NCBI GenBank assembly: GCA_002319075.1
Contig: NVQB01000001.1
Span: 2,666,001-2,730,000 of the forward strand
Direction of reading: 5' to 3'
DNA: 64,000 bases
DNA from: Sphingobacteriaceae bacterium
Lineage (GTDB): Bacteria; Bacteroidota; Bacteroidia; B-17B0; Aurantibacillaceae
The stretch's first letter is position 1. The number at the start of each line of letters is the position of its first letter. Below are positions 3,781 to 57,876 of the stretch, one piece after another. Under the pieces are notes generated by a model. The model saw only the letters and a list, made by a program, of their open reading frames with translations. It was not told where the DNA came from and searched no databases. A program made the position numbers and the translations under genes.

Positions 3781-4337
3781 TTCAGTAGTGTTTAGAAGTG
3801 AATGCACGGAGTTAGTTCTACTTCGTCGCCACTTCAGAATTTTTCTTAGTTTATAAATATGTCTTTACCTTATTGTGTTTATTTACTTTTTAGTAAAAAA
3901 GATTTTGAATTTGCAGATGAATTTTATGGGAAATAGGGACTTAGAATATATGGCGGAACTCAGCTATATTATTAAATAAGAATAGTGCACTTTAGCCACA
4001 TTATGATAGTAATATGGGAGTTGGAGACAGATTTACGTTTACATATTGAGTTTATTTTAAGAGACAAACGGGTCGCCTTACTAATTAATTTTTTATTTTC
4101 AACTTCGTGTCATCCATGTTTGGTTCGCAGCGGGTATCAAAAACATCAGAACGTTTAATCAGATAGGGGCGTGGGTGGTCCTGCAAAATAAAAGTAAGGT
4201 GAACCGCAACAAAGCTTATAAATAAAGTCAGATCGCTCTAGGAAAAAGAGGAGCGAAGTTATTAAGAATTACTTTTGGACCCAGTTCCCCCTATTTTAAA
4301 GGGCTTGGCTCGCAAAATTTAAAATTTTTAAAAAAAA
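3781..4337. other. Gene-free stretch between tRNA-Arg and the his leader
   Basis: About 560 bp with no open frame of credible length or codon use on either strand, no recognisable RNA and no clear repeat. It lies just downstream of a tRNA gene, a frequent integration site, but no integrase and no second copy of the tRNA 3' end is visible. It may be decayed sequence. Confidence 0.5.
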
Positions 4338-4362
4338 TCTGATCAATTCAAATTTAATCGCT

Positions 4363-4370
4363 TACATTTG
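4363..4370 (+). promoter_or_regulatory. his operon promoter, minus-7 box
   Basis: TACATTTG matches TAnnTTTG. A weak minus-33-like TCTG is at 4338-4341. Transcription should start near 4377, which places the leader peptide start at 4392 about 15 nt into the RNA. Confidence 0.65.
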
Positions 4371-4391
4371 TCACAGTTAAAAAACAAAAAA

Positions 4392-4454
4392 GTGAATTTC
4401 GTACAACAATTACATCATCATTTTCATGCTTACTCTCAGGTGAGGTGGAAATGA
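4392..4454 (+). CDS. hisL: Histidine operon leader peptide
   Basis: A GTG-started, 20-residue reading frame, MNFVQQLHHHFHAYSQVRWK, ending in TGA. Four of five consecutive codons (8-12) are histidine, the hallmark of a ribosome-stalling leader that senses charged tRNA-His. The 3' end of the frame overlaps a 6-bp hairpin (4451-4469), and a strong intrinsic terminator follows at 4476-4507, 50 nt before hisG. Layout matches E. coli his attenuation although the peptide itself differs. I infer stalling at the histidine codons favours an alternative fold, for example CTCAG at 4435-4439 pairing with CTGAG at 4485-4489, and prevents termination. Confidence 0.85.
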   Translation: MNFVQQLHHHFHAYSQVRWK

Positions 4455-4475
4455 TTTGTTTGTAATCATATATTC

Positions 4476-4507
4476 AAAACCCGTCTGAGTCAACAGGCGG
4501 GTTTTTT
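4476..4507 (+). terminator. his attenuator terminator
   Basis: AAAACCCGTCTG pairs with CAGGCGGGTTTT (one T-G wobble) around a 6-nt loop and runs into TTTTTTG. It lies between the leader peptide and hisG, as an attenuator should. Confidence 0.85.
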
Positions 4508-4556
4508 GTTTTCAGACATTTCTCCTTCTCGTTTACTCAGGCACTAAAACAAAAAA

Positions 4557-5414
4557 ATGAGTAAACTAAAAATTGCAATTCAAAAAAGCGGAAGGCTCAG
4601 CGAAAAATCACTCGCGCTGTTCAAAGACTGTGGCATCAAACTTTCTAATGGAGACCGTAAGTTAAAAACGGAGTCCGCAAATTTTCCTGTAGAAGTTTTG
4701 TACTTAAGGGATGATGACATTCCTCAATATGTAGAACAAGGTGTTGCAGACATTGGTATTGTTGGTGAAAATGAAGTCTGGGAGAAAAATAAAAATGTCT
4801 ATACTATTGAAAAACTGGGCTTCGCTACCTGCAAGCTTTCACTGGCAATTCCTAAAGATGAGTACTATAGCGGACTCTCTTACTTTAATCAGAAGAAAGT
4901 AGCGACCAGTTATCCGCGTATTCTGCAGAATTTTTTCAGCGAAAATTCCATTAGCGCTGAGATCGAAGAAATAGGTGGGAGCGTTGAAATAGCACCTGGC
5001 ATTGGTCTGGCCAACGGCATCTTTGATATTGTTAGTACAGGAAGCACCCTCTTAATGAATGGCCTTAAAGAAGTAGAAGTTGTTTACAAAAGCGAAGCGG
5101 TTTTAATAGCCAACAAAGTTCTGGCCGAAGATAAACACATAATCCTCGACAAATTTCTTTTCAGAATTAAAGCAGTAAGAAACGCTGTTGAAAATAAATA
5201 TATTCTGTTGAATGCACCGGACGAAGCGGTCGCAAAGATCTCTTCCATTCTTCCGGGCATTAAATCGCCAACCGTTTTGCCATTGGCCATGAAGGGATGG
5301 AGCAGTATTCACTCTGTTGTAAAGGAAGACGAATTCTGGGATGTAATTGATCAGTTGAAACTTGTTGGAGCGCAGGGAATTTTAGTTATACCTATTGAAA
5401 AAATGATCGTTTGA
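4557..5414 (+). CDS. hisG: ATP phosphoribosyltransferase, long form
   Basis: Catalyses the first histidine step, ATP + PRPP to phosphoribosyl-ATP, in the cytoplasm. The protein has 285 residues, the long HisG form with a C-terminal regulatory domain (about 210-285), so it should be histidine-inhibited without HisZ. Visible family motifs are the start KIAIQKSGRLSEKSL, DIGIVGENEVWE near 72-83 and the PRPP loop DIVSTGSTLLMNGL near 157-170. It is the first structural gene after the attenuator. Its TGA overlaps the hisD ATG by one base. Confidence 0.97.
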   Translation: MSKLKIAIQKSGRLSEKSLALFKDCGIKLSNGDRKLKTESANFPVEVLYLRDDDIPQYVEQGVADIGIVGENEVWEKNKNVYTIEKLGFATCKLSLAIPKDEYYSGLSYFNQKKVATSYPRILQNFFSENSISAEIEEIGGSVEIAPGIGLANGIFDIVSTGSTLLMNGLKEVEVVYKSEAVLIANKVLAEDKHIILDKFLFRIKAVRNAVENKYILLNAPDEAVAKISSILPGIKSPTVLPLAMKGWSSIHSVVKEDEFWDVIDQLKLVGAQGILVIPIEKMIV

Positions 5415-6694
5415 TGAAACAATTTATAAATCCTGGTAAAAAAGAGTGGGCTCAATTGGCTCAAAGGCCCGCTGTTAAAGAGGCGAACCTGAATTATTTA
5501 ATGGAAACTGTTTTTGGAGAAATTCACACTCATGGAGATAAGGCAGTAAAAAAATATTGTCTGCAATTTGATAAAGTAAATTTAGATTCTTTGAGAGTAG
5601 ATAAAAAAACTATTGATTCTGCTTCGAAAAAATTAAGCAAAGAATTAAAGCTGGCTGTTAAGTTCGCAAAAAAGAATATTGAAAAATTTCACGGGTCGCA
5701 AAAAGAAATAATCAGGAAAATAGAGACGGCGCGTGGAGTTAAATGCTGGAGGGAGAGCAGGGCCATTGAAAAAATCGGCATTTACATTCCAGGGGGAACC
5801 GCGCCTTTGTTCTCAACCGTCTTAATGCTAGGAGTTCCCGGGAAACTGGCAGGTTGCAATGAAGTTTGTTTATGTACGCCTCCCGATAAAAATGGAGAAA
5901 TAGCTCCTGCTATTTTGTACGCAGCAAAGTTGGTAGGAATTACTAAAGTATTTTCAATTGGTGGTGTCCAGGCTATTGCGGCTATGACTTATGGTACGGA
6001 GAGCGTTCCTAAGGTCGATAAAATTTTCGGTCCGGGTAATCAATACGTTACAGCAGCAAAACAATATGCACAGAAATATGGCGTAGCTATTGATTTACCA
6101 GCCGGACCAAGCGAAGTGCTTGTTATTGCAGATAAAAATTGTATGCCGGCTTTTGTAGCTGCAGATCTTCTTTCCCAGGCAGAGCATGGCATAGATAGTC
6201 AGGTGATTTTACTTTCCGATAACAGAAGAACGTCTGATCTTATCCTTGAGGAGGTTCAGAAGCAGTTAAAACAATTGCCAAGAAAAGAAATTGCATCCGG
6301 CGCATTGCGAAACAGCAAATCTCTTGTTATGAGATCTATTTCTGACTGCCTCGACTTCAGCAACGGTTATGCACCTGAGCATTTAATTCTTGCCACAAAA
6401 AATGCCAGGAAACTGATCCTAAAAATTAAAAATGCCGGATCTGTATTTCTGGGAAATTATAGTTGTGAAAGCGCTGGCGACTATGCCAGTGGAACCAATC
6501 ACACGCTTCCAACAAATGGATTTGCCAGAAATTATAGTGGTGTCTCGCTTGATAGTTTTGTGAAAAAAATCACTTTCCAGGAAATTACTAAAGAGGGAAT
6601 TAAAGCTATTGGTCCTGTTATTGAACGAATGGCTGAAGCAGAAAACTTAATAGCTCACAAAAATGCAGTTAGTATCCGGCTTAAAAACTTATAA
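5414..6694 (+). CDS. hisD: Histidinol dehydrogenase
   Basis: Oxidises L-histidinol to L-histidine in two NAD+-dependent steps, the last of the pathway. The ATG at 5414 shares a base with the hisG stop (TGATG) and is preferred to an in-frame TTG three bases earlier; this gives 426 residues, the usual size. Motifs seen are [32 protein letters not shown], the zinc and catalytic region [18 protein letters not shown] and [15 protein letters not shown]. The zinc ligands Q, H, D and H of the family are all present. Confidence 0.97.
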
Positions 6695-11517: not shown

Positions 11518-11529
11518 CGAGGTAATAAA

Positions 11530-11605
11530 GCATCGGGGTGCTTCTTAAATGAGGCTGAGATTATACCCGGAAACTTGAACTGGATAATACCAGCGTAAGA
11601 AATGC
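11530..11605 (+). ncRNA. TPP riboswitch (THI element)
   Basis: The aptamer carries the conserved THI-box blocks: GGGGTGC, then GGCTGAGATTATACCC, then ACTTGAACTGGATAATACC followed by AGCGTAAGAAAT. The outer P1 stem is GCAT (11530-11533) with ATGC (11602-11605). The pyrimidine-sensing CTGAGA and the pyrophosphate-side AATACCAGCGTA are both intact. A perfect intrinsic terminator follows 28 nt later, so control is by transcription termination when TPP is bound. It governs the methyltransferase, PurM/HypE-fold and ThiE-like genes. Confidence 0.95.
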
Positions 11606-11632
11606 AGAAAAAATTTAAACATAAATCATACG

Positions 11633-35092: not shown

Positions 35093-35911
35093 CTAAAGTT
35101 TTTTCCAGATTTTCTCCTGATCTACTTGTTTAAACTTAGCTGAAATACGCGAAAAGTTAATGGTTTCTTTTTCGCCCAAGGCTAAATAAGAATTTGGCGA
35201 AAGACTAAGATCAAATAATTGAAAAGTACGGTCCTGTAATTCCTGGTCAAAATAGATCAATACGTTTCTACAAATAATAAGATCAAAACGATTTATATAT
35301 TCTTCGCTGGCAAGGCTATGGGAAATGAAAGTCATTCGTGAACGAAAGCGTTCATCGAATTTCTCGCCGAAAGAGGTTTCTGTATGGTACGCTGAAAAAT
35401 CCCTTTCTCCCCCGGAAAGAATATAATTTTTCGCATACAGTTGCGTAAGACTTACAGGGAAAACTCCTGTGCGTGCTTTTGTGAGCACTTGTGGATTCAC
35501 ATCTGTACCAAGTAACTCTGACTTTTGAAGGAGTCCGGCCTCATGCAATAAAATAGCAACACTGTAAACCTCCTGGCCCGTAGAGCAGCCCGCATGCCAG
35601 ACTCTTATAACCGGTCTTTTTGCTAACTCGGGGATTACCTGATTTCTTAATACGAGAAAAAACGAAGGATCACGAAACATTTCAGTAACATGTACGGTAA
35701 TCCGATCAATAAAATGATCAATGTAATTTGGATCAGATCTTAATTTTGTGGTAAACTCTGAGAAGCTGCGATATTTTTCGAGCTTGTAGAGGCGGTTAAT
35801 TCTACGTTTAAACGAATCGCGCGAATAATAAGTGAAGTCATAATTGTAGAGTTCTCGCAGGTCTTTAAGTACAGAATTTATCTCAGAATCGTTCAACATG
35901 GGAAATTTCAA
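35093..35911 (-). CDS. cheR: CheR-type protein-glutamate methyltransferase
   Basis: A 272-residue protein. The N-terminal alpha domain (about 1-75) includes DFTYYSRDSFKRRINR and is followed by the SAM-binding domain with VWHAGCSTGQEVYSVAI (motif I), LLGTDVNPQVLTKA and FDLIICRNVLIYFD. CheR enzymes methylate receptor glutamates, but no receptor, CheA or CheB gene is close, and Bacteroidota often use stand-alone CheR in hybrid signalling systems. Convergent with the receptor gene, 9 bp apart. Confidence 0.9.
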   Translation of the reverse strand: MKFPMLNDSEINSVLKDLRELYNYDFTYYSRDSFKRRINRLYKLEKYRSFSEFTTKLRSDPNYIDHFIDRITVHVTEMFRDPSFFLVLRNQVIPELAKRPVIRVWHAGCSTGQEVYSVAILLHEAGLLQKSELLGTDVNPQVLTKARTGVFPVSLTQLYAKNYILSGGERDFSAYHTETSFGEKFDERFRSRMTFISHSLASEEYINRFDLIICRNVLIYFDQELQDRTFQLFDLSLSPNSYLALGEKETINFSRISAKFKQVDQEKIWKKL

Positions 35912-36170: not shown

Positions 36171-36186
36171 TGGCACAGAGTTTGCA
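36171..36186 (+). promoter_or_regulatory. Sigma-54 promoter
   Basis: TGGCAC at minus 24 and TTGCA at minus 12 with GG and GC exactly 10 nt apart, the strict sigma-54 spacing. It points to the right, where no gene starts on this strand for nearly 1 kb; a terminator-ended RNA follows. Confidence 0.8.
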
Positions 36187-36196
36187 ATTCTTTTAA

Positions 36197-36366
36197 TGTC
36201 AACCTTAAATAGAACCTTTGCACTAATTAATTACAAAGGCTGCATTAGAGGATCACTATATAACCACAAACCGACAGTGAAAGCATGAGCAACACTGGGA
36301 TACGGGGAGAAAAACTGATCTTCGGATCAAGACAAAAGGCCACAGTAATTTTTACTGTGGCTTTTT
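36197..36366 (+). ncRNA. Predicted sigma-54-dependent small RNA
   Basis: Predicted transcript of about 170 nt from about +12 of the sigma-54 promoter to a strong intrinsic terminator. Visible structure: CCTTTG (36215-36220) with CAAAGG (36234-36239); a TGATC-TTCG-GATCA stem (36316-36329) with the very stable UUCG tetraloop; then the terminator. The only frame inside (ATG at 36285) would read through the terminator, so it is unlikely to be coding. I cannot match it to a named RNA family. Expected regulation: activation by an NtrC-type regulator. Confidence 0.7.
36334..36366 (+). terminator. Terminator of the small RNA
   Basis: GCCACAGTAA and TTACTGTGGC form a perfect 10-bp stem with a TTT loop, extended by A-rich and T-rich flanks. 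Confidence 0.9.
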
Positions 36367-36430
36367 GTATTTTCAACTACCTGCGAAGCGACATGTTGCT
36401 TTGAGGCCCGGCAGTTGTGCAGCCCGTAAG

Positions 36431-37060
36431 TTAATGGTTAGCTTTATAATAAGCACAATGCTTGGCCACCACACAATCGTGGTGTTGTGGGTGTGTTGGT
36501 CTGCAGGTTTCACGTCCCAAAAAAGAAATAGCCATGCCAATTTCTCCCCAATCTTTTTCAGGAATGACTTCCATAATTTGTTTCTCTATTTTTTTTGGAT
36601 CTGTGCCGCTTGCAATTCCAATACGTGGAGCAACTCTCACTACGTGAAGATCTACAATAATTCCTTCCGCCTTTACTCCCGCGCCACGCATAATTACGTT
36701 TGCTGATTTTCTTCCAATACCGGGAAGTTCAGTCAAAGCTTCCATAGTGAGGGGAATATTTTTATCAGTTTTAACGGTATTCGCTAAAGACATGAGCCAT
36801 TTTATTTTATTTCCAAAATTTCTGACTTTTCCAATAAGTTTAACAAGGCTTGCTTCATCTGCAGCAGCAAGGCTTTTCATGTCGGGATAGACTTTAAAGA
36901 AGTCGGGAGCCAAACTGTTAATGTGTTTGTCTGAATCCTGGGCCGAGAGCACTACCATGATCACTAATTGATAAAGATTTTTGTATTCTAAGGGATGTGC
37001 TTTGCCTTTGTATTTAGCCAGCAGAGGTTTCATTGCCTCAGCCCAATCTATTTTCATCAT
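36431..37060 (-). CDS. nth: Endonuclease III
   Basis: Base-excision repair DNA glycosylase/AP lyase for oxidised pyrimidines. A 209-residue protein with helix-hairpin-helix ELPGIGRKSANVIM (catalytic K118) and catalytic D137 in IVDLHVVRV. The C-terminal iron-sulphur loop keeps the canonical spacing but reads C186-x6-H193-x2-C196-x5-C202: a histidine replaces the second cysteine. The [4Fe-4S] cluster may therefore be His-ligated or absent. Monocistronic. Confidence 0.94.
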   Translation of the reverse strand: MMKIDWAEAMKPLLAKYKGKAHPLEYKNLYQLVIMVVLSAQDSDKHINSLAPDFFKVYPDMKSLAAADEASLVKLIGKVRNFGNKIKWLMSLANTVKTDKNIPLTMEALTELPGIGRKSANVIMRGAGVKAEGIIVDLHVVRVAPRIGIASGTDPKKIEKQIMEVIPEKDWGEIGMAISFLGRETCRPTHPQHHDCVVAKHCAYYKANH

Positions 37061-57300: not shown

Positions 57301-57337
57301 TTGCGAATAAGTTCTTTTTCTTTATTTCATCATCAAC

Positions 57338-57507
57338 CGGAAAAGGTTTCACTTAGCTGTAGATTAAAAGGGAATCGTGTGCAAATCACGAACTGTCGCG
57401 CAACTGTAAGTAACTCAAAAGTTTTTACCAATAAAAAGTCCACTGTTCAGACACCAGAAGGGGAAGGAGGGTAAAAATGTTACAAGTCAGGAGACCTGCC
57501 TGTTCCG
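57338..57507 (+). ncRNA. Cobalamin (B12) riboswitch
   Basis: The conserved core reads AAAGGGAATCGTGTGCAAAT then CACGAACTGTCGCGCAACTG, followed by the long variable arm and AAGTCAGGAGACCTGCC, the 3' B12 box. The closing stem pairs CGGAA (57338-57342) with TTCCG (57503-57507). Downstream, CAGGTC (57542-57547) can pair with GACCTG inside the aptamer (57493-57498) or with GACCTG at 57580-57585, a plausible switch. It controls the transcript of the Dph6-like, PAS and thioesterase genes, 370 bp later. Confidence 0.93.
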
Positions 57508-57876
57508 AATTGACAAGTGCTTTCGCGAAATGAAGCAGGGTCAGGTCAGATGTATTAAGTCGCAATCATTTAAAGGACAGACCTGTCTGTATTGTACTTT
57601 ATTATATTTACTTTCTTTATTATTTCACAAGCATTCGAAGTTCAGCAAAGAGCTTTTAAAAGATTTATTAATCATTTAGAAAAAAATGCAAACAACTACT
57701 TTTGTCTGCCAGCAATTGTTGGCGGCATAGAATTCAGAAAAAGCCTGTGAGCACTATTGGTGCGGCAAAATGGTAGTAACAGCAAAAGAAGTTAGAGAGT
57801 CGTAAAAATTCAGTAGCGTGATAAAGACCGGTAGGCGCAATGGTTGCCGGTTTTGTAATTAATTTTAGAACTTATC
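57508..57876. other. Long leader between B12 riboswitch and coding region
   Basis: Expression platform (57542-57590, including a strong AC-AGAC/GTCT-GT hairpin at 57577-57590), then about 230 bp without a credible gene. A 14-codon frame at 57686 has no support. A terminator-like hairpin lies just before the start codon. Confidence 0.55.
57827..57854 (+). terminator. Terminator-like hairpin before the Dph6-like gene
   Basis: ACCGGTAG pairs with GTTGCCGGT (two wobbles, loop 9 nt) and is followed by TTTTG, 23 nt before the GTG start. A second control point or the end of a short upstream transcript. Confidence 0.6.

Follow-up and report, generated by a model that had tools for sequence, protein, structure and literature searches.

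The locus and its predicted transcript

The locus lies in a window of 64,000 nucleotides, by which we mean the whole stretch of DNA that was analysed, between a cheR-type methyltransferase gene and an nth-type DNA glycosylase gene that both read on the minus strand, with no gene found between them on the plus strand. The features are as follows, and the 63 copies mentioned are those of the family described below.

35093-35911, minus strand: cheR-type methyltransferase gene, divergent (PF01739, E 9.5e-38; start codon uncertain)
36171-36186, plus strand: sigma-54 promoter -24/-12 element, TGGCAC and TTGCA around the spacer AGAGT, that is TGGCACAGAGTTTGCA
36197-36367, plus strand: predicted transcript of ~170 nt, placed from the promoter and the terminator
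36197-36261, plus strand: variable leader, carrying ATTACAAAGGCTGCA at 36230-36244
36262-36308, plus strand: conserved core of 47 nt, with 5' ACCA, P1, GGA bulge, P2 and P3
36271-36274, plus strand: 5' strand of P1, CCGA, with U36301 and C36303-G36305 as partners and A36302 bulged
36275-36279, plus strand: 5' strand of P2, CAGTG, pairing with CACTG at 36293-36297; strongest covariation
36283-36290, plus strand: P3, GC-AUGA-GC; outer pair changed on both sides in 20 of 62 rows and unpaired in 3
36298-36300, plus strand: GGA bulge between P2 and P1, invariant (GGGA(U/C)ACGG in 63 of 63 copies)
36316-36329, plus strand: UUCG-capped hairpin, not conserved
36333-36367, plus strand: intrinsic terminator, from the fold and a terminator scan
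36431-37060, minus strand: nth-type DNA glycosylase (HhH-GPD) gene, convergent (PF00730, E 3.8e-17)

An earlier note on this DNA had proposed a sigma-54-dependent small RNA here, on the strength of a perfect -24/-12 element, about 170 nt without a gene on the plus strand, three stems including a UUCG-capped hairpin, and a strong intrinsic terminator. The gene-free stretch was borne out, in that a scan for reading frames of at least 50 amino acids found a single overlapping plus-strand frame, a 52-amino-acid TTG ORF whose start lies upstream of the promoter, and the terminator was found at 36333-36367. The region 36196-36372 folds with -48.1 kcal/mol (z = -4.9), and since z is -1.4 without the terminator (36196-36330), fold energy supports the terminator alone. 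As to the stems, that of the terminator held up and the UUCG hairpin did not. The hairpin can form, the minimum-energy fold pairs its bases otherwise, and the tetraloop is absent from two relatives, G001 (GATC-CATTAA-GATC at this position) and G011 (TTCC-GGAA); we conclude that it is incidental to the RNA. In the leader, ATTACAAAGGCTGCA recurs exactly in G011 and partially elsewhere among the copies. The cheR homologue of G001 begins at MLND, and the cheR protein had no relative in a viral scan.

The sigma-54 element in the window

We scored promoters against the -24/-12 consensus TGGCAC-N5-TTGC with GG-N10-GC, which the element upstream of the predicted transcription unit matches exactly, as the earlier note had claimed. 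Within the window, TGGCACAGAGTTTGC at 36171-36185 on the plus strand is the sole exact TGGCAC-N5-TTGC; shuffled windows give an expectation of 0.10, with at least one such site in 10 of 100 shuffles. The 5.65-Mb genome holds five exact sites for TGGCAC-N5-TTGCW including that of the window (two of the remaining four lie within reading frames and two between them), and the reversed-pattern control gave one. At the same place, G011 carries TGGCACAGAATTTGT with 9/10 matches and G001 the weaker TGGCATAGAATTTGT with 8/10. The predicted start at 36197 was set 12 bases past the C of the -12 GC.

Family and distribution

Of 41 genomes searched at the DNA level, 40 had some match at E <= 1, mostly short chance ones; three matches besides the window itself were below 1e-6, in G001, G011 and G022. 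The RNA locus of G001 and G011 adjoins cheR as in the window, with promoter, core and terminator kept, and in G011 nth is separated from the RNA by an hsp20 gene; in G022 the RNA lies at a different place, with core and terminator and no promoter site above 8/10. A covariance model of these four sequences (R1: window, G001, G011, G022) found the core in 26 of 40 genus genomes at E <= 0.1, including a partial match in G052 that we read as chance. A second model (R2), made from 43 copies with G052 left out, found 63 copies in 46 of the 87 genomes examined in the order, all of which belong to one family; the other 41, some near-complete, gave no match. Contigs present under two ids were counted once, and the copy counts span related species and are hence not independent.

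In two wider draws of 395 genomes each, 15 candidates were scored per genome, so that weak relatives may escape. The draw from the phylum matched only in the window's own genome, and that from the class matched in nine genomes at E <= 0.01, eight of the same family (including the partial G052) and the ninth, G579, from another family and marginal at E 0.0026. When named genomes were scanned by pattern, 39 loci came up, of which 31 are titled Bacteroidetes, Bacteroidota, Bacteroidia or Sphingobacteriaceae, one 'bacterium', and seven otherwise, the last being deemed chance. R2 excludes seven loci titled outside Bacteroidota (L065, L071, L076, L082, L085, L090 and L100) that were deemed chance, four of which reach 20-24 bits under R1. 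Viral sequences scanned for the core pattern yielded no match.

Rfam 15 gave no match at gathering score at the window core nor at the cores of the 20 family loci examined out of 60, and only weak chance-like matches at E up to 10 over 519 bases. Elsewhere in the window there is a cobalamin riboswitch at 57327-57517 and a TPP riboswitch at 11524-11618. A literature search for the 3' core string GGGAUACGG led, among the matches listed, to one paper, on plant miRNAs. Together, these findings describe an RNA family that was uncatalogued until now. By sequence comparison it is likely a new structured small RNA family, so far from one order of Bacteroidia, and the predicted family is bigger than the single locus of the earlier note.

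A conserved core with a covarying hairpin

The core follows the pattern ACCA..(A/G)CCGAC-hairpin-GGGAUACGG, whose hairpin varies in both strands among relatives, and a CCA stands near the 5' end in 63 of 63 copies. When 43 cores were aligned with MAFFT, an alignment not fitted to the structure, standard pairs filled 96.0% of cells and the covariation score was 0.412, compared to 0.176 in shuffles (reached by 0 of 500) and 0.006-0.075 with the partner strand slid. Six pairs changed on both sides, a number that 49 of 500 shuffles reach; the corresponding number in the 62-row alignment, which represents the full set (63 copies, 62 distinct rows) and was fitted to the model, is reached by 91 of 500. 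The stem that matters is CAGTG/CACTG (36275-36279/36293-36297), not the UUCG hairpin.

The helix P1 required closer consideration. Its three G-C pairs hardly vary and are uninformative on pairing, and of six cores folded singly, four (the window, L163, L156 and L138) pair CC(10,11) with GG(37,38) instead of P1, while L134 forms P1 and L136 neither. We nevertheless kept P1 because of the changes at pairs 13-40 and 9-45. The former (36274-36301), which extends P1, is A-U in 55 of 62 rows and G-C in 7 with no misfit, the G-C rows being confined to G003, G016, G051 and the second copy of G018, four genomes in all; the latter is unpaired in 16 of 62 rows, and in the window this next pair outward (36270-36306) is a nonstandard A-G. 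The predicted P1 is thus CCGA with U-A-CGG and one bulged A, divided from P2 by the GGA bulge. A pseudoknot of the 5' CC with the GG of the bulge is possible; its bases are invariant, which places it beyond the covariation test.

The core varies in length by single bases (46, 47, 48 and 52), which throws any reading frame out of register and so argues against coding. We regard the predicted RNA as almost certainly non-coding and structured.

Promoters and terminators across the copies

A terminator lies within 130 bases downstream of 59 of the 63 cores, compared to 1 of 63 in the same scan upstream. Sigma-54 sites of at least 9/10 were found in the 160 bases upstream of 12 copies, seven of them perfect; the reverse strand gave 0 of 63, and shuffles gave 0.15 per 63 with a maximum of 2. 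In L163, which is among these 12, the site also fits a housekeeping box. Of the 63 copies, 21 have such a box, of the form TAnnTTT[GA], 10-26 bases ahead of the core; the shuffle mean is 2.8 (maximum 8), and three spans of equal width farther upstream give 0, 1 and 6. TAnnTTTG is described as the -7 box of the Flavobacterium housekeeping sigma factor (PMC9723704).

In the 21 housekeeping-box copies, the RNA would start near the core. Core and terminator there span 72-115 nt, which leaves scant room for a separate targeting region, and function therefore points to the core. Leader length would range among copies from about 0 to about 85 nt. A leader segment of ~20 bases is kept in six copies of the same genus whose sites lie at -104 to -112, and the second G001 copy has it as well. 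In 41 of 63 copies the next downstream ORF (at least 70 amino acids) reads from the opposite strand, and in 22 from the same one. Most likely, the RNA is an independent gene with exchangeable promoters in which the core is the constant part, and core plus terminator is likely the working unit of a trans-acting small RNA. The family, the hairpin structure, the terminator, the promoter types and the lack of a conserved reading frame are all established by comparing sequences.

Two other explanations bear on whether this is a sigma-54-driven RNA gene at all. The -24/-12 site could be coincidental and the window copy driven by a different promoter, given that 51 of 63 copies fall below 9/10 and that an exact site arises in one shuffled window in ten. 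However, a site occupies the same place in G001 and G011, six further copies in the genus have perfect sites, of which five stand at -110 to -112 relative to the core and the sixth at -77, and no TAnnTTTG box was found within 75 bases before the window core, all of which makes coincidence improbable; the window copy is very probably sigma-54-driven. The element could also be a small protein gene or a REP-like mobile DNA element rather than an RNA gene, as it is short, occurs one to three times per genome, and is overlapped by ORFs of 72-73 amino acids in 3 of 63 copies. Against this stand the frame-breaking core lengths, the paired compensatory changes in the hairpin, and the terminator on one side with a promoter on the other in many copies, and we consider such an origin least probable of all.

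The small-RNA reading of the earlier note therefore stands with corrections: the UUCG hairpin is incidental, the family is not generally sigma-54-driven, and the diagnostic core hairpin had been missed. The sequence-based checks that it suggested turned out in its favour, as the covariance model built from homologues revealed many compensatory hairpin changes, and the promoter (8/10 in G001), core stem and terminator recur in G001 and G011. A genome without rpoN was to have spoken against the proposal; the gene was found twice.

rpoN genes and the RNA

rpoN is present in 85 of 87 genomes of the order, and the window genome (G000) is one with two. Its second gene, rpoN2 (L182, G000:C1:3261600-3270200, at 4019-5494 on the minus strand), belongs to a clade distinct from that of rpoN1 in a 59-protein tree, and is followed downstream on the same strand by genes for a receiver-domain protein and an NDH2-like oxidoreductase. 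Proteins of G003, G016, G022, G051 and G057 form a third, divergent clade, with G057 on a long branch; the second rpoN match of G023 is a fragment and was left out of the tree.

Within the genus, all 13 genomes in which two rpoN matches exceed the cut-off have the RNA, compared to 12 of 27 others, and G024, whose second match is below the cut-off, is without the RNA. Of the genus members, all 8 in the rpoN2 clade have a site of at least 9/10, compared to 2 of 32 others, counts that are uncorrected for relatedness. We do not claim a link between the RNA and a second rpoN, as G018 has a perfect site with a single rpoN. Outside the genus the link to rpoN2 fails, since G062 has rpoN2 without the RNA, and G083 and G093 have both without a site of at least 9/10.

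Comparison with known small RNAs

Sigma-54-dependent small RNAs are present in Proteobacteria, where they include Qrr, GlmY and CrcZ. The window RNA resembles these in being intergenic, with a -24/-12 promoter and an intrinsic terminator, but unlike them it has no Rfam match at gathering score, and other copies of its family bear housekeeping boxes instead. Neither Hfq (PF17209), on which RNAs of the Qrr type depend, nor CsrA (PF02599), the partner in the CsrB/RsmY type, was detected in any of the order's 87 genomes; these were the only two partner candidates that we tested. Among RNAs that titrate proteins are CsrB/RsmY, EutX and 6S. The family shares with them a conserved structured module, an exposed GGA and apparent sufficiency as RNA, and differs from them in usually having one module per transcript, not many, as well as in the undetected CsrA and the lack of an Rfam match.

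A closer parallel by lineage is the flavobacterial Rfp18, likewise a Bacteroidota small RNA conserved within one lineage and, as described in PMC9723704, predicted to pair with protease mRNAs. The earlier note had called sigma-54-driven small RNAs little described in this phylum; we found no sigma-54-controlled small RNA of Bacteroidota in the literature, among the matches listed.

How the RNA may act

We give a probability of about 0.6 to the reading that this is a standalone trans-acting small RNA of a new family, taken loosely and with a protein titration or delivery mechanism included. In the window, sigma-54 RNA polymerase, opened by an enhancer-binding protein, would start near 36197, and transcription would end at the hairpin at 36333-36367. 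The working part would be the core of 46-52 nt, with its 5' CCA, P1 with the bulged A, GGA bulge and variable covarying hairpin, and it would most likely serve as the landing site for an RNA-binding protein that is titrated or carried by the RNA. Switching on sigma-54, or the housekeeping sigma in other copies, would then change the supply of the bound protein. Transcription, start site, protein partner and titration are what we infer; the 5' CCA and the GGA bulge, both invariant, hint at a decoy that binds protein. If the family is real, we see roughly even odds that its action runs through a protein bound to the core and not through base pairing. Since 41 of 87 genomes are without a match, the partner's need for the RNA is not general. 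Only tentatively do we put forward a narrower picture, that of a lineage-specific RNA receptor module whose CC-GGA pseudoknot sequesters an RNA-binding protein and which is placed by turns behind sigma-54 and housekeeping promoters, possibly the first sigma-54-controlled small RNA family in the phylum.

The main competitor is a base-pairing (antisense) small RNA, in which the leader, the 5' ACCA or the loop of the hairpin pairs with mRNAs and the core is a handle for stability or a chaperone. Base pairing is the usual mode of small RNAs, and the leader segment kept in the six same-genus sigma-54 copies and the second G001 copy would suit it. On the other hand, the inferred leader varies down to almost nothing, the best-conserved bases sit in or beside structure, and Hfq went undetected throughout the order, so that we hold pairing to be rather unlikely, if a serious contender. 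A cis-acting riboswitch or attenuator, with a core that senses and a terminator that controls the next gene, would explain why a compact conserved fold closely precedes a terminator, and same-strand ORFs do follow in 22 copies, for example hsp20 in G011. Yet the next ORF of the majority, the window included, is on the opposite strand and the neighbouring genes are diverse, leaving cis control very improbable and the trans-acting RNA as our preferred reading.

Regulation by small RNAs is little known in Bacteroidota, and the best-known chaperone and decoy proteins, Hfq and CsrA, were undetected in this order. A compact RNA whose core is invariant and whose promoters are exchangeable, present in roughly half the order's examined species, would offer a direct handle on RNA-binding proteins, and the sigma-54 copies make sigma-54 control in these bacteria testable.

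Heat-shock neighbours and paired copies

Hsp20 genes (by Pfam) lie within two ORFs of 10 of the 63 RNA copies, and GroEL (recognised by eye) within two ORFs of seven. In eight of the ten Hsp20 genes (L138, L126, L140, L144, L146, L132, L134 and L147), a -24/-12-like site of the (T/A)GGAA type stands 72-82 bases ahead of the start codon; its 7-8/10 matches are a score that chance often produces in single sequences. Sigma-54 control of GrpE and GroES is described for Bacteroidota species (PMC12316311). The adjacency may reflect merely shared gene order, and we take it as a lead only.

A further copy in G001 (L122:3440-3485) lies ~1.1 kb before the tmRNA gene. G003, G051 and G016 (L124, L152 and L135) each have two copies of the RNA 0.9-3 kb apart, with cores of the form CCGGC...GGGACACGG. 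Five of these six paired copies have two CGGGATAGC repeats upstream, and it is possible that they represent a multi-site version of the RNA.
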